This document shows positions 10,375 through 17,067 of a stretch of 64,000 bases of DNA, piece by piece. The stretch is taken from assembly GCF_014208035.1 (NCBI RefSeq), contig NZ_JACHMK010000001.1:1364001-1428000 (forward strand), read 5' to 3'. The first letter of the stretch is position 1, and the number at the start of each line of letters is the position of its first letter. The notes below the pieces were generated by a model that saw nothing but the letters and a program-made list of their open reading frames with translations, searched no databases and had not been told where the DNA came from. Made by a program: the position numbers and the translations under genes. This stretch comes from Schaalia hyovaginalis. Lineage in GTDB: Bacteria; Actinomycetota; Actinomycetes; Actinomycetales; Actinomycetaceae.

Positions 10375-11418
10375 ATGAACACGACACCCCTGAACGAGTC
10401 CCCTTCGGCGCCCATCGGACAGCAGCGCAGGCGCGGGCCGCTTGCCGAGGGCGATCGGGTGCAGGTGAGGGACCCGAAGGGACGCCTTCACCAGGTGATC
10501 CTGGTGGGAGGGGGCACCTTCCAATCGAATCGCGGATCCTTCAAGCACGATGACGTGATCGGCCTGCCCGACGGCCAGGTGATCGAAACCGAAGAGGGCC
10601 GCCAGTTCCAGATCCTGCGCCCCCTCCTCGTGGACTACACGATGGCGATGCCCCGCGGCGCGGCGGTCGTCTACCCCAAGGACGCGGGGACGATCCTCCA
10701 TATGGCGGACATCTTCCCCGGCGCGAGGGTCGTCGAAGCCGGTGCCGGTTCCGGAGCGCTGTCGATGGCGCTGCTCAACGCCGTGGGGCCCCGGGGGAGC
10801 CTCGTGTCGGTCGAGCGCCGCCAGGACTTCGCCGACATCGCGCGTGCGAACGTGGACCTCTGGTTCGGGGCCGAGCACCCCGCGTGGGACCTGCGCGTCG
10901 GCGACCTCGACGCCGAACTGGAGACGATGGAGGCCGACAGCGTCGACCGCGTCGTGCTGGACATGCTCGCCCCCTGGGAGAACATCGAGGCCGTGGCCCG
11001 CGCGCTCATTCCCGGCGGCGTCCTGTGCTGCTACGTCGCGACGGTGACCCAGCTGTCGCGCCTCACCGAGGACCTGCGCGCCTCGGGCAGATTCACGGAT
11101 CCGGTCGCCTGGGAGGACATGCGGCGCGAATGGCATCTCGACGGCCTCGCGGTCCGCCCCGAGCACCGGATGGTCGCCCATACGGGCTTCCTCCTCATCA
11201 CCCGTTCGCTCGCCCCGGGGATCTCGCCGCAGGCGCGTTCGACGCGTCCGGCGAAGTCCTCGGAGGGCATGGGCGGCCAGTGGGACGGGGAGGCCGGCTG
11301 GTCCGAGCAATCCGTCGGAGTGCGCGTCTCCTCGGAGAAGAAGATCCGCAAGGTGCGCCGCGATGTGACCGCGAAGGCCGACACCTGGGTCGACGGAAGG
11401 GAGGGCGCCAATGAGTGA
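10375..11418 (+). CDS. trmI: tRNA (adenine-N1)-methyltransferase TrmI (m1A58)
   Basis: A 347-residue class I SAM methyltransferase that makes 1-methyladenosine at position 58 of tRNA. An N-terminal beta domain (GPLAEGDRVQVRDPKGRLHQ) precedes the Rossmann core: motif I VVEAGAGSGALSMALL, acidic SAM ribose contact VSVERR, and VVLDMLAPWENIEAVARAL with the catalytic Asp. RPLLVDYTMAMPRGAAVVYPKD is the family signature. The C-terminus is extended by about 60 low-complexity, basic residues. It overlaps arc by eight bases, so the two genes are translationally coupled. Confidence 0.95.
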   Translation: MNTTPLNESPSAPIGQQRRRGPLAEGDRVQVRDPKGRLHQVILVGGGTFQSNRGSFKHDDVIGLPDGQVIETEEGRQFQILRPLLVDYTMAMPRGAAVVYPKDAGTILHMADIFPGARVVEAGAGSGALSMALLNAVGPRGSLVSVERRQDFADIARANVDLWFGAEHPAWDLRVGDLDAELETMEADSVDRVVLDMLAPWENIEAVARALIPGGVLCCYVATVTQLSRLTEDLRASGRFTDPVAWEDMRREWHLDGLAVRPEHRMVAHTGFLLITRSLAPGISPQARSTRPAKSSEGMGGQWDGEAGWSEQSVGVRVSSEKKIRKVRRDVTAKADTWVDGREGANE

Positions 11419-12961
11419 GGACTTCCACGCCACTCGCATCGATGAGCTCCAGCGCCTCGTCGTATCGCTCGAGGAGAAGAACGGCCGCCTCGCCGCCGCC
11501 CTCACGCAGGCCCGCGGGGAGCTCGTGAAGGCCCAGTCGCAACTGCTCGAGGTCAACCGGCCGCCGCTCACACTCGCGATGTTCCTGCGCTCGGACCCGA
11601 GCGCGCGAGAGATCGAGGTCGTGCTGAACGGCCGGCGCATGCGCCTGGCCGCGGCCCCCGGGCTCGACCTCGCCGCACTGTCGTACGGGCAGCTCGTCCG
11701 CGTCGACGACAAGCTCGTCGCCGTCGCCCCCGATCGTTTCGCGCGGACCGGTTCGATGGCGTCCGTCCTCGAACTCGTCGGGCCCGATCGCGTCCTCGTC
11801 GCCTCCCAGGCCGGCCAGGAGCACCTCCTTGTCCTCGCGGGCCCCCTCAGGCACGGGAATCTGCGCCCCGGCGATTCGCTCGTGGTCGACCTGCGCGCCG
11901 GCGTCGCCCTCGAGAAGGTCGTGCGCTCGGATGTCGAGCAGCTCCTCACACCCGAGGTGCCCGACACGACCTATGAGGACATCGGCGGTCTGGACGCGCA
12001 GATCCAGCAGGTCCGCGATGCGATCGAACTCCCGCTCACCCATCCCGAGCTGTACCGCGCCTACGGCTTGCGCCCGCCCAAGGGCATCCTCCTGTACGGG
12101 CCCCCCGGTTCGGGCAAGACCCTCATCGCGAAGGCCGTTGCGAACGCCCTGTCCGCGAAGGGCTCGGGGAAGAGGACCTGCTTCCTGTCGATCAAGGGCC
12201 CCGAACTGCTCAACAAGTTCGTGGGGGAGACCGAGCGCCAGATCCGCGCGATCTTCTCCAGGGCCCGCTCCCTGGCCGCGGGGGACGTTCCGGTCGTCGT
12301 CTTCTTCGATGAGATGGAGGCCCTGTTCCGCACCCGCGGAACCGGCGTCTCCTCCGATGTGGAGACGATGATCGTGCCCCAGCTCCTCGCCGAGATGGAC
12401 GGTGTCGAGGCCCTCGACAACGTCGTCATCATCGGCGCCTCGAACCGCGCGGACATGATCGATCCCGCGGTCCTGCGGCCCGGACGACTGGACGTGCGCA
12501 TCCGCGTGGAGCGCCCCGATCGCGCGGGCGCCCGCGACATCATGGCGAAGCACCTCCGGTCCGGTCTTCCGGTGCGCTCCGACGAGATCGCGCGTACCGG
12601 CTCGGCCTCATCCGCGATCGGGGGGATGATCGACGCCGCGGTCGAGCGCCTGTTCACCGAGGACTCGTCCACCGCCCTCTTCGATGCGAGGCTCGCCTCG
12701 GGCAGGCGCATGCGGATCCACCTGTCCGACGTGGTCTCGGGGGCGATGATCGCCGGAATCGTTGAGCGGGCGAAGAAACTCGCCATCAAGGACTCGCTTT
12801 CGGGCGCGGCCCCCGGGCTCGCGGTCGAGCACGTCCTGGCGGGCGTCGACGAGGAGATGCGCGAATCGATCGAACTGGCGCAGACCTCCTCCCCGGATGA
12901 CTGGGCGCGCACGATCGGCCTGAGGGAAGAGATCGTCTCCATCGCACCGGTGAAGGACTGA
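11411..12961 (+). CDS. arc: AAA ATPase forming ring-shaped complexes (ARC/Mpa) lacking the proteasome-docking tail
   Basis: A 516-residue AAA unfoldase that recognises pupylated proteins. It has an N-terminal coiled coil (~residues 8-50, the Pup-binding part), two OB folds (~55-185), and an AAA module with Walker A GPPGSGKT (~230-237), pore loop LLNKFVGETER, Walker B VVFFDEMEALFRTRG and GASNRADMIDPAVLRPGRLD. In proteasome-bearing relatives the protein continues about 25-30 residues past the DDWAR...I segment and ends in GQYL, which docks into the 20S core. Here it stops at EEIVSIAPVKD, so the docking tail is absent. It is coupled to trmI and lies two bases before dop. Confidence 0.94.
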   Translation: MSEDFHATRIDELQRLVVSLEEKNGRLAAALTQARGELVKAQSQLLEVNRPPLTLAMFLRSDPSAREIEVVLNGRRMRLAAAPGLDLAALSYGQLVRVDDKLVAVAPDRFARTGSMASVLELVGPDRVLVASQAGQEHLLVLAGPLRHGNLRPGDSLVVDLRAGVALEKVVRSDVEQLLTPEVPDTTYEDIGGLDAQIQQVRDAIELPLTHPELYRAYGLRPPKGILLYGPPGSGKTLIAKAVANALSAKGSGKRTCFLSIKGPELLNKFVGETERQIRAIFSRARSLAAGDVPVVVFFDEMEALFRTRGTGVSSDVETMIVPQLLAEMDGVEALDNVVIIGASNRADMIDPAVLRPGRLDVRIRVERPDRAGARDIMAKHLRSGLPVRSDEIARTGSASSAIGGMIDAAVERLFTEDSSTALFDARLASGRRMRIHLSDVVSGAMIAGIVERAKKLAIKDSLSGAAPGLAVEHVLAGVDEEMRESIELAQTSSPDDWARTIGLREEIVSIAPVKD

Positions 12962-12962
12962 C

Positions 12963-14474
12963 ATGAGGATCATCGGAACCGAGACCGAGTACGGCATCTA
13001 CCGCCCGGGGGACCCCTGGGCCAATCCGATCGCCCTGTCCGCGCAGGCGGTCCGCCACTACGCCGAGATCTCCCGGCGGGGAACCGCCGCCGAGGGGGCG
13101 CCGCCGGTGAGATGGGACTACACGGGCGAGGACCCCCTCAACGACCTGCGCGGGATGAGGATGTCGAGGGCGGCGGCCGACCCCTCCCTGCTCACCGACG
13201 ATCCGTACCGCCTCGCGCCCTCGGGGGGCTCGGAGAAGATCGCACGGCCGACGCCGGAGGAACTCGCGCTGCCCGCCCAGACGACCGCGGTCCTCACCAA
13301 CGGCGCGCGGCTCTACGTCGATCACGCCCACCCCGAGTACTCGTCCCCGGAGGCCCTCGGCGCCCTCGACGCCGCGCTGTGGGATCGGGCGGGCGAGGTG
13401 ATCGCCCAGCGCATCATGACCAGGGCCGAGCAGGCCGGCGAGCCCCTCGTCCTCGTCAAGAACAACACCGACGGCAAGGGCGCGGCCTACGGCACCCACG
13501 AGAACTACCTCATGCGCCGCGACGTCGATTTCGACGAGGTCGTGCGCGGCCTCACCCCCTTCTTCGTGACGCGCCCCGTCATCTGCGGGGCCGGCCGCGT
13601 CGGCATCGGCCAGAAGTCGCAGATCCCCGGCTTCCAGATGTCTCAGCGCGCCGACTTCGTCGAGAACGAAGTCGGCTTGGAGACCACCTTCAACCGCCCA
13701 ATCATCAACACCCGCGATGAGCCGCACGCGAATCCCGCTTCGCACCGGCGCCTCCATGTGATCGGCGGCGACGGCAACATGTTCGACGCCTCGATCCTCC
13801 TCAAACTGGGAACGACCTCGCTCGTCCTGTGGGCGATCGAACAGGGCATCGGCCTGCAGTGGGACGCCCTCGTCCTCGACGATCCGGTGGCGGAGACCTG
13901 GAACGTCTCGCATCACCCGGATCTCGACTACCGGCTCTCGACGGCCGGAGGGGGCTCCTACACGGCCGCCGAGCTCCAGCAGGTGATCCTCGACCTCGTC
14001 GTGGAGACCTTCGACCGGCTCGGGCAGACTCCGGACGAGGGCGACCGGGCCGTGCTAGAACTCTGGCAGTCGGTGCTCGATCGCATGCGCGCCGACCTCT
14101 TCTCCGTCGCCGCCGAAGTCGAATGGGTCGGCAAATACGCCCTCCTCGGGCGCCTCAAGGAGCGTTCGGGACTCGAATGGTCCGACCCGCGTCTTCAAGC
14201 GATGGATCTTCAATGGGCCGACCTGCGCCCGGAGAAGTCGCTCGCCCTCAAACTCTCGCGCGCAGGACGGGTGAGGCGCCTCTTCACCGACGAGCAGGTC
14301 GAGGAGGCCGCCGACAAGCCGCCGGCGAACACACGCGCGGCGATCCGAGGAGGGGCCGTCTCCTCGCGGCCCGATCTCGTCAAGGCATCCTGGAGCTCGC
14401 TCGTCGTCGACCCCGGCGCAGGCGACCTGATCCGTTACCCGATCGCGGATCCCTGGGCGGCGGCCCGCCCCTGA
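12963..14474 (+). CDS. dop: Pup deamidase/depupylase Dop
   Basis: A 503-residue carboxylate-amine ligase-like enzyme. Dop deamidates the C-terminal Gln of Pup to Glu and also removes Pup from substrates. The N-terminal beta strand GTETEYGIY carries the ATP/Mg glutamates, the Dop-specific loop rich in charged residues (about 54-85, [18 protein letters not shown]) is present and distinguishes it from PafA, and [32 protein letters not shown] and [10 protein letters not shown] are active-site motifs. It starts directly after arc and precedes pup by 22 bases. Confidence 0.96.
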
Positions 14475-14496
14475 CCGCGGATATTCGAAGGAGACA

Positions 14497-14682
14497 ATGA
14501 TGGACATCACCCAGCTCTTCGCACCCTCCGCAGATCCGGACGACCCGGACGGCGTCGAGGCCGCCGGGCGCGTCACGGCGCGCGCCGAGTCGCTCGACGA
14601 CATCCTCGACGAGATCGATTCCGTGCTGGAGACGAACGCCGAGGCCTTCGTCCAGGGATTCGTCCAGAAGGGCGGCCAGTGA
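14497..14682 (+). CDS. pup: Prokaryotic ubiquitin-like protein Pup
   Basis: A 61-residue, acidic, mostly disordered protein modifier ending in Gly-Gly-Gln; the Gln must be deamidated by Dop before PafA joins it to lysines. The helical ARC-binding part is [32 protein letters not shown] in sequence order from residue 30 (given here as the region, with key residues DDILDEID and [11 protein letters not shown]). The ATG at 14497 follows GAAGGAGAC. Only one base separates its stop from the pafA start, so the prcB and prcA genes that usually follow pup are missing. Confidence 0.96.
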
Positions 14683-14683
14683 G

Positions 14684-16072
14684 GTGAGGCGCCGCGTCGT
14701 CGGAATCGAGACGGAGTACGGGCTGATGGCGGCCCGGGCCGATGGGGGAGCATCCGCGATGGATGCCGAGCACGCCGCTCAGCACCTCTTCCAACCGCTG
14801 CTCCGCGCCGGACGCAGTTCGAACCTGTTCCTCGCGAACGGCGGGCGCCTCTACCTCGACGTGGGCGCGCACCCCGAATACGCGACCGCCGAATGCGACC
14901 GTCTGGAGGACCTGCTCGAGCAGGATCGGGCCGGTGCCGCGATCCTCGCCGAGCTCGCACTGCGGGCCGATGAGTCCTTCGCGGAAGTGGGCGCTCCGGA
15001 GCGTCTTCACCTCTTCCGGAACAATCTCGACGCCGAGGGCAACTCCTGCGGCTGCCACGAGAACTACCTGCTCCATCGGCGCAGGGACTTCCGTCAGGTC
15101 GCCGACGCGCTCATCACCTTCTTCATCACGCGGCAGATCCTCGTCGGCAACGGGAGGATCCGGATCGGGGCCTCGGGGGCCCATCTCGTCTTCTCGCAGC
15201 GCGCCGAGCAGATGTGGGACGCGGTCTCGGCCGCCACGACCCGGTCCCGGCCGATCATCAATACGCGCGATGAGCCCCTGGCGGATTCGGGCTCCTACCG
15301 GCGCATGCACGTCATCGTGGGCGACACGAATGTCGCAGAGCCCACCACCGCGCTCAAGATCGGCGCGACCGAGATGCTCCTCCAGGCGGTCGAAGACGGA
15401 TTGCGCATCGAGGACCTCGCCCTCGCCGACCCGATGCGGGCGATCCGCGAGGTCTCGCTCGACCTCAGCGGCCGCACCGAGGTCGAACTCGCCGACGGCA
15501 GGAGGATGAGCGCGACCGCGATCCAGAAGGAGATCCGGGATCGCGTCCTCGCCTCGCTCGCTCCGGGAAGCCTCGACGAGATGCACGCCTACGTCGCCGA
15601 TCTGTGGGGGCGCGGGATCGCGGCCCTCGAGTCGGGGGACTGGTCCGGCATCGATACCGAGCTCGACATCGCGATCAAGAAGAAGCTCCTCGAGACCTAT
15701 GCGGCGCGCCTGGGCGCGGGCCTGGCGGATGCGCGCATCCGGCGTCTCGACATGTCCTATCACGATATCACGGATGCGGGGATCGTGAAGAAACTGGAGA
15801 AGGCCGGTCTTGTTCGCCGGCTCACGACCGACGAGGGCGTCAGGCACGCGATGACGAGGGCGCCGCTCACGACGCGCGCGCATCTTCGAGGACGGATCGT
15901 CGCCGCGGGAGAGGCCGCGCGGACGGATGTCACGGTCGATTGGGTGCATGCGCGCCTGGACGATCAGTCGACCCCGCCGCTCACCCTGAACGACCCTCTC
16001 GCCAGTGAAGATCCCCGCGTGGACGCCTTCATCGAGAAGATCTCATCATCGGCGCCGGTGCTTCCAGCATGA
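14684..16072 (+). CDS. pafA: Pup-protein ligase PafA
   Basis: A 462-residue ligase that uses ATP to form an isopeptide bond between the C-terminal Glu of deamidated Pup and substrate lysines. Signatures are RRRVVGIETEYGL at the N-terminus, GRSSNLFLANGGRLYLDVGAHPEYAT in two adjacent motifs, FRNNLDAEGNSCGCHENYL and [11 protein letters not shown]. It lacks the Dop-specific loop. The GTG start at 14684 lies one base after the pup stop, with the Shine-Dalgarno sequence inside the end of pup. It overlaps the FKBP gene by four bases. Confidence 0.96.
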   Translation: MRRRVVGIETEYGLMAARADGGASAMDAEHAAQHLFQPLLRAGRSSNLFLANGGRLYLDVGAHPEYATAECDRLEDLLEQDRAGAAILAELALRADESFAEVGAPERLHLFRNNLDAEGNSCGCHENYLLHRRRDFRQVADALITFFITRQILVGNGRIRIGASGAHLVFSQRAEQMWDAVSAATTRSRPIINTRDEPLADSGSYRRMHVIVGDTNVAEPTTALKIGATEMLLQAVEDGLRIEDLALADPMRAIREVSLDLSGRTEVELADGRRMSATAIQKEIRDRVLASLAPGSLDEMHAYVADLWGRGIAALESGDWSGIDTELDIAIKKKLLETYAARLGAGLADARIRRLDMSYHDITDAGIVKKLEKAGLVRRLTTDEGVRHAMTRAPLTTRAHLRGRIVAAGEAARTDVTVDWVHARLDDQSTPPLTLNDPLASEDPRVDAFIEKISSSAPVLPA

Positions 16073-17067
16073 GCGGACCCGGGCTTCCCCCCTCCTTCCC
16101 CTCGCGGCGCACGGCTCAACCCCCTCGCCCGCGCAGGCGCTTCAGGCCGCTCGTACTGCTCGTGGTCCTCGCCGTGACACTGGCGGCCGCGGCGGGCGTC
16201 TGGCGCCTCCTGCCTTCGAGGAACGGCGTCGAAGGGACCCTTCAGGAGCTGATCGGCCCCTTCGACCGCATCTCCGTCTCCGGCCGCGTGGGAGCAACGC
16301 CCGTCGTCGACTTCTTAGGACCGGTCCGGACCTCGGCGGTCAAGGTCCGCGAGCTCATCGCCGGTGACGGCCGCGAGATCGAGCAGGGGACCCCGGTCCT
16401 CCTGTCGATCAGCGCCTTCGACGCAACGACGGGAGAGAACCTGGCCGAATCGGCACGGCCCGATCTCTTCGTGGGCACGGCGACGCCGGAGGAGCTGGGT
16501 GCGGATCTCGCGTCTCTCGTCATCGGCCGAAAGGAGGGGGAGCGCCTCCTCGCGATCCACCCGGTCTCCCAGGAATCGGGGCGGACGGCCAGTGAAGTCG
16601 TGGTCGTCGACATCCTCTGGACGACCGCGAAGGGCGCAGAGGACACCGTCAACGAATTCGGCGCGGTATCGGTGGCGATGAGCCCGACGGGCCCGATCGT
16701 CTCCCACGATGAGAAGGCGCCGGACGGTTTGACGGTTCAGAGCCTCATCGTCGGCGATGGCCCCCAGGTCGGAGTCGACGACTCCATCGTCGCCCAGTAC
16801 CAGGTGGTGGGGTGGACGGACGGCGCGGTCCGCTCGTCGACGTGGCGCACGGGAATGCCGGAGGTCATCGCACTGCCCGAGGCGATGAAGGGACTCGTGC
16901 AGGGGGTGACGGACCGGCGCGTCGGATCGCGTCTGGCGATCACCATCCCCGCGGACTTCGCCTCCGGGGACGACACCCTCATCGTCGTCATCGACATCCT
17001 GGGAACGGAGCCGAGGTCCTCCTCGGATCCTGAGAGCGCGCCCGGCGAGGCCGCGCAGTCGAAGTAG
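16069..17067 (+). CDS. Membrane-anchored FKBP-type peptidyl-prolyl isomerase, two-domain
   Basis: A 332-residue exported or membrane-tethered protein. A basic N-terminus (PRPRRRFRP) is followed by one transmembrane/signal segment LVLLVVLAVTLAAAAGVW. Two FKBP-like modules follow, roughly 55-195 and 200-320; the second carries the more recognisable pattern (VGDGPQVGVDDSIVAQYQVVGWTDG, then LPEAMKGLVQGVTDRRVGSRLAITIPADFASG). The first module is weakly conserved and may be structural. The gene overlaps pafA by four bases; an FKBP gene next to the pupylation locus is common in Actinobacteria. It probably assists folding of secreted proteins. Confidence 0.82.
   Translation: MSGPGLPPSFPSRRTAQPPRPRRRFRPLVLLVVLAVTLAAAAGVWRLLPSRNGVEGTLQELIGPFDRISVSGRVGATPVVDFLGPVRTSAVKVRELIAGDGREIEQGTPVLLSISAFDATTGENLAESARPDLFVGTATPEELGADLASLVIGRKEGERLLAIHPVSQESGRTASEVVVVDILWTTAKGAEDTVNEFGAVSVAMSPTGPIVSHDEKAPDGLTVQSLIVGDGPQVGVDDSIVAQYQVVGWTDGAVRSSTWRTGMPEVIALPEAMKGLVQGVTDRRVGSRLAITIPADFASGDDTLIVVIDILGTEPRSSSDPESAPGEAAQSK

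Follow-up and report, generated by a model that had tools for sequence, protein, structure and literature searches.

Pupylation loci without a 20S proteasome have been described before. According to section 5 of Barandun 2012 (PMC3511204), some actinobacteria, e.g., corynebacteria, carry no proteasome genes, pup lying directly before pafA and the ATPase gene being kept, and the ATPases of such organisms are stated there to lack the C-terminal motif. For Corynebacterium glutamicum, passages of two reports (PMC8223512, PMC12288473) describe the mobilisation of iron from ferritin by pupylation without 20S, with unfolding of the pupylated target by ARC and recycling by Dop being proposed by their authors. 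Pup and a Pup ligase without linked proteasome genes are mentioned for Plesiocystis and Rhodopirellula in the pertinent part of Iyer 2008. Here we analyzed a window of 64,000 nucleotides (the term denotes the whole stretch of DNA) from Schaalia hyovaginalis (GCF_014208035.1, NZ_JACHMK010000001.1, positions 1,364,001 to 1,428,000, forward strand) which harbors the genes arc, dop, pup and pafA and belongs to the kind of locus described in 2012 (PMC3511204) and known from corynebacteria. With the corynebacterial cluster III (Barandun 2012, PMC3511204) it shares the order arc-dop-pup-pafA, the position of pup directly before pafA, the retained ARC and the lack of both prcBA and a GQYL terminus; it differs in being located in the Actinomycetaceae, and in a genome without ferritin. 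The Pup encoded by the window ends in GGQ. Compared with the Pup-proteasome systems of Mycobacterium and Streptomyces, ARC/Mpa, Dop, Pup and PafA are of the same families, whereas prcB, prcA, Bpa and the GQYL tail are missing. The four genes and the lack of 20S are also common to the ferritin pupylation of C. glutamicum, from which the window genome is set apart by having no PF00210 protein. We think it rather probable, by analogy with these systems, that the locus encodes a working reversible pupylation cycle without 20S proteolysis, in which ARC would serve as a stand-alone Pup-dependent unfoldase.

The complete window genome (2.65 Mb on two contigs, rated 100% complete) was screened for components of a 20S proteasome. 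Not a single match to the 20S subunit profile (PF00227) was obtained; the same profile search matched 10 of 14 known control genomes, and as E. coli was among those matched, HslV would show as well. Just one base lies between pup and pafA, as the preliminary description had stated: the pup stop codon ends at 14682, pafA begins at 14684, and base 14683 (14683..14683, forward strand) is all that is left of the site which in proteasome-bearing relatives accommodates prcB and prcA. Neither of these two genes was found elsewhere in the genome. In a named comparison set of 80 ARC loci, seven of which were unevaluable (L042, L043, L048, L056, L068, L075, and L089), the distance between pup and pafA amounts to 1.5–2.0 kb in all 48 evaluable loci with a GQYL-type ARC (one GHYL included) and to at most 57 bases in all 25 evaluable non-GQYL loci. 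Variant ARC ends are GHYL in L047, with a normal pup-pafA distance of 1.5 kb, and GPYL in L068, which lies on a short contig. A second ARC, and in particular one with a GQYL tail, was looked for throughout the window genome and not found; the other match to the ARC profile (43% identical, residues 180–392) lies within a 731-codon frame with an AAA domain, presumably FtsH. Two matches to PF03136, the Pup-ligase family, were obtained and are Dop and PafA. With no PF00227 match, one ARC and no docking tail, there is no 20S core for the window ARC to feed, which is what had been proposed from the sequence at the outset.

All four genes are intact, as predicted, and arranged in the order given above on the forward strand, each product exceeding its own NCBIfam equivalog cut-off (TIGR03689 505 bits, TIGR03688 492 bits, TIGR03687 41 bits, TIGR03686 551 bits). 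The gene arc (11411..12961) encodes an AAA+ unfoldase ring subunit (Mpa/ARC) of 516 amino acids without GQYL tail (TIGR03689, 674 bits), dop (12963..14474) a Pup deamidase/depupylase of 503 amino acids (TIGR03688, 560 bits), pup (14497..14682) a protein of 61 amino acids with the end GGQ (TIGR03687, 74 bits) and pafA (14684..16072, GTG start) a Pup ligase of 462 amino acids (TIGR03686, 561 bits). ARC could be aligned with the solved Mpa 7ljf over residues 8–507 of 516 and displays the conserved motifs GPPGSGKT at position 230, FVGETE at 270, VVFFDEME at 296 and RPGRLD at 356. Dop aligns with 415 bits to the solved Dop structures 9cku and 4b0r and its aspartate at position 120 matches the aligned position; PafA aligns with 404 bits to PafA 4b0t, the aspartate at position 59 within LYLDVGAHPEY likewise matching, and in the PafA-Pup chain 4bjr the residue aligned to it is Asn. 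Pup matches the Pup of 7px9 and 3m9d and has kept its C-terminal half; since it terminates in GGQ, deamidation by Dop is expected. The ratio of nonsynonymous to synonymous differences (pN/pS) was calculated for the window genes against five relatives and amounts to 0.25–0.36 for arc, 0.22–0.38 for dop and 0.26–0.39 for pafA, close to the 0.27–0.41 of the neighboring trmI, and to 0.31–0.65 for pup, the latter derived from 56–61 codons. The purifying selection on arc, dop and pafA is thus about as strong as that on trmI, which argues that ARC is in use and that the whole set is maintained.

The locus is no special case: the same layout without 20S holds across the sampled relatives of the family, and a description of it has been available since 2012 (PMC3511204). 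In the family set, comprising 151 genomes including that of the window, PF00227 was matched in none, compared with 122 of the 198 genomes of the order set in the same search. ARC (TIGR03689) exceeds the cut-off in 139 of the 151 genomes and PF03136 was matched in 145. In those 142 family loci in which the distance was measurable, the conserved start of pafA follows pup within at most 237 bases (gaps calculated from the longest open reading frame (ORF) are sometimes negative, the gene start being uncertain), which leaves no room for prcBA. Bpa (PF10759), described in passages of the literature as accompanying 20S, had no match in the window genome nor in any of the 151 family genomes; this family run was without any control match, and in a separate control run 8 of 8 20S-bearing genomes were matched. 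Two ARC trees were constructed, one with FastTree and one by a short IQ-TREE search, both quick and with long branches, and both unite the family on a single branch apart from the outgroup rows included, with a support of 99. The simplest reading is that 20S was lost once, probably no later than in the family's common ancestor. Five genomes from three genera (G226, G272, G292, G301, and G334) have no Pup-ligase match and at most a weak ARC match; pupylation seems to be wholly lost there.

The ARC of the window ends in VSIAPVKD and lacks the GQYL docking tail, as had been noted; the end reads EEIVSIAPVKD followed by the stop codon (12926..12961, forward strand). A shortfall of 25–30 residues had been given, which proved too high: by-eye alignment with the 20S-bearing relatives that run on to GQYL yields approximately 21 residues, which make up linker and docking motif. 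Among close relatives of the window the last residues of ARC vary.

For a broader comparison a family locus set of 147 ARC loci from 129 of the 151 genomes was used, into which ARC matches from about 581 bits upwards were taken, the contig-end fragments of G323 and G309 being skipped. A GQYL end occurs in none of these 147 ARCs, which agrees with Barandun 2012. Loci with neither trmI nor an FKBP-like gene in the stretch were designated locus II and all others locus I; L191, on a cut contig, groups with locus I in the ARC trees, and the assignment of L190 is uncertain. Within the 122 locus-I ARCs a recognisable tail is present in 53 and absent in 69. The tail classes, which were defined after inspection of the tails, comprise 26 ARCs ending in -GLI (often -WDxVVxxGLI), 17 in -YL or -FL (e.g., -GGYL, -PGYL, -RDYL), five in -GGKL or -GGRL and five in -DVL or the like. 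Conserved non-GQYL tails without a 20S match are found in L171–L186 (-YL) and L192–L231 (many -GLI), namely -TPxGYL, -ETRDYL and -WDxVVxxGLI. In the trees, ARCs with a -YL tail branch off at the base of the family; the window ARC is grouped with other tailless ARCs, in a clade of 46 rows in one tree and of 21 in the other. The missing prcBA genes and the missing tail had been treated as two independent witnesses; as none of the 151 genomes has 20S and nevertheless 53 of 122 tails are kept, above all in basal lineages, tail length alone is no sign of 20S and this part of the argument falls. Assuming a single loss of 20S, several lines retained the tail beyond this event, and the clade of the window lost it afterwards; the ARC docking tail of this clade was thus probably lost later than 20S.

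Several lines of sequence comparison suggest that the larger tail groups are under protein-level constraint, with a short motif placed behind a freely evolving linker. The last four codons of 53 GQYL-type ARCs, taken as a positive control, gave pN/pS values of 0.01/0.41. All 11 ARCs from the Georgenia-like genera (g89, g77, g81) share the same last three residues (pN 0.00, pS 0.29), and residues -15 to -30 are unconstrained (pN 0.60, pS 0.46). The -GLI class shows pN 0.39 and pS 0.70 over the last ten codons and 0.69/0.74 for residues -15 to -30. In sets chosen by genus, residues -4 to -10 were compared with residues -15 to -21: values are 0.22/0.34 versus 0.56/0.47 in the Georgenia-like set (11 ARCs), 0.47/0.71 versus 0.66/0.71 in g2+g7+g74 (19 ARCs) and 0.45/0.82 versus 0.70/0.74 in g88 (6 ARCs). 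In nearest-neighbor pairs the last eight residues are more alike than eight residues of the linker in 7 of 8 pairs of the -YL class (one tie) and in 12 of 13 pairs of the -GLI class. The case for constraint is weakened by several observations, to which the definition of the classes after inspection has to be added. A Shine-Dalgarno confounder exists in the -GLI class, since the last 18 bases of arc contain a GGAG-like string in 22 of 26 cases, which may be the ribosome-binding site of dop; in the other four -GLI ARCs, few as four sequences are, protein-level constraint on the motif region persists, with 0.22/1.00 over the last six codons, 0.35/1.00 over the last three and 0.63/0.77 for residues -15 to -30. 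The -YL class as a whole gave 0.31/0.29 over the last eight, because it joins clades with different motifs. No constraint was seen in the -DVL tails (four sequences, 0.27/0.24 over the last ten), and among the tailless controls, which gave 0.39/0.26 (g3), 0.57/0.61 (g90), 0.37/0.37 (g1) and 0.65/0.45 (g83) over the last four, genus g85 with 0.30/0.49 shows some constraint. Outside the family, 27 ARCs were read from genomes of the order in which 20S had no match, and none of them falls into a tail class; this sample covers 30 of 45 ARC-bearing genomes and 27 of 30 loci.

A tentative proposal, to which we give distinctly less than even weight, is that after the family's loss of 20S the ARC tail was kept and remodelled for another partner, as -TPxGYL or -ETRDYL in basal lineages, approximately as -WDxVVxxGLI in a large clade where it was lost repeatedly and as -DFGGKL in another. 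In this view ARC would act as the docking ring of a non-20S machine not described so far; the clade of the window would have abandoned this machine along with the tail, and two relatives, as the extreme of this reduction, would have dropped ARC and kept Pup, PafA and Dop.

With respect to the target of pupylation, the ferritin model of C. glutamicum, which the preliminary description had mentioned, turned out not to be transferable. No match to ferritin/Dps (PF00210) was found in the window genome, although the same search matched all 14 known control genomes, among them that of C. glutamicum. Ferritin as a pupylation target in this genome is consequently ruled out; ferritin disassembly as in C. 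glutamicum cannot apply here and another target is needed. PF00210 was matched in 95 of the 151 family genomes, among which are all 11 further genomes that the set contains from this genus, ferritin and Dps being counted together here.

In two relatives, G341 (2 contigs, 98% complete) and G238 (170 contigs, 92% complete), the locus reads trmI-dop-pup-pafA-fkbp and arc is gone from it (L308:6491–11753 and L309:1847–6990). Their best genome-wide ARC matches are weak (E values 2.5e-47 and 3.5e-33), of the level reached elsewhere by AAA proteins other than ARC, and the Pup of G341 ends in GGE. In a further genome, G286, PF03136 was matched twice and ARC only weakly; the same holds for G235 and G306, these two genomes being incomplete.

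In the cycle which we favor for the window, Dop would convert the GGQ end of Pup to GGE, whereupon PafA would attach Pup to lysine residues of its targets. ARC would grip the tail of Pup and pull, the tagged subunit thereby being unfolded or extracted from a complex; Dop would remove Pup again and the target could refold or reassemble. The target would be a protein other than ferritin. The enzyme reactions and the unfolding by ARC are ascribed here by analogy with the known families. Arguments against this cycle are that ferritin, the single precedent target, is absent from the window genome, that in two relatives pup, pafA and dop persist at a locus devoid of arc, so that the tag can matter without unfolding, and that a partner peptidase may bind ARC elsewhere than at the tail.

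These arc-less loci of G341 and G238, with their weak genome-wide ARC matches, are also what speaks for pupylation as a tag only, i.e., a reversible signal by which target proteins are altered in their activity or their partners, with ARC being secondary; an intact window arc under purifying selection and an ARC above the cut-off in 139 of 151 genomes make this unlikely. We regard it as quite improbable that another peptidase, e.g., ClpP, receives tagged proteins from ARC in place of 20S. The conserved ARC tails in other lineages of the family without 20S suggest that ARC can dock something, whereas the window ARC is tailless with last residues that vary in close relatives, and HslV would belong to PF00227, which has no match in the genome. 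To our knowledge, no ClpP-binding loop of ARC is known. The five genomes devoid of a Pup-ligase match show that the system can be lost, and the locus might be imagined as a relic slowly decaying since the loss of the proteasome; pN/pS values of 0.22–0.39 for arc, dop and pafA and the retention of PF03136 in 145 of 151 family genomes render this very improbable. Finally, a 20S which was missed through an assembly gap or extreme divergence, conceivable in a profile search on a two-contig assembly, is hardly credible given a genome rated 100% complete, the contrast of 0/151 family to 122/198 order genomes in one and the same search and the likewise missing Bpa, reported in part of the literature as a companion of 20S.

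Besides the locus described so far, at least 18 of the 151 family genomes encode two full-length ARCs; the window genome contains locus I only. In these 18 genomes the set arc, dop, pup and pafA is complete at locus I in all 18 and at locus II in 15 (L131, L133, L135, L141, L144, L146, L150, L152, L153, L156, L158, L160, L162, L164, and L165), both sets thus being complete in 15. Apart from L191, the locus II ARCs form one clade with a support of 97 and 98 in the two trees; the second locus is an old clade. In G256 the contig breaks off within locus II. At L137 and L139, the locus II stretches of G317 and G151, arc, pup and pafA were found and dop was not, although Pup ends in GGQ there; with four PF03136 matches in each of the two genomes, their dop may be located elsewhere. 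For Leptospirillum ferrooxidans, two complete pupylation loci are mentioned in a figure legend of Barandun 2012 (PMC3511204), a situation resembling that of the 15 window relatives with two diverged arc-dop-pup-pafA sets per genome; in contrast, the window genome has one set, and the second set of the relatives represents an ARC clade of its own inside a family without 20S.

The locus widens a known exception, since the tag is uncoupled from 20S in every sampled family genome that keeps the tag. The family provides a natural series, with a remodelled ARC tail without 20S, neither tail nor 20S, two parallel sets, and Pup without ARC, which allows roles of Pup besides degradation to be tested by comparison; should it be true that the non-GQYL tails dock a partner, they would point to an unknown ARC machine. 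In the open-licence literature no paper on remodelled ARC tails, a second locus or ARC-less pupylation in this family was found.

The nearest named relatives by ARC identity are Actinomyces culturomici (84%), Actinomyces sp. B33 (80%) and Schaalia cardiffensis (78%); in a wider protein search, the best 120 of 7999 matches were near relatives and added nothing. The upstream neighbor of arc is a trmI-like tRNA methyltransferase gene (10375..11418, forward strand; PF08704 80 bits, PF14801 75 bits), which overlaps arc by 8 bases and adjoins most locus-I loci. Downstream, an ORF of 332 amino acids (16069..17067, forward strand) without Pfam or NCBIfam match overlaps pafA by 4 bases, and homologs of it follow pafA in most locus-I loci. 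Its place is conserved and it is fast evolving (pN/pS 0.52–0.73). It is probably the FKBP-like neighbor, a name which is based on its position and on the corresponding part of Iyer 2008.

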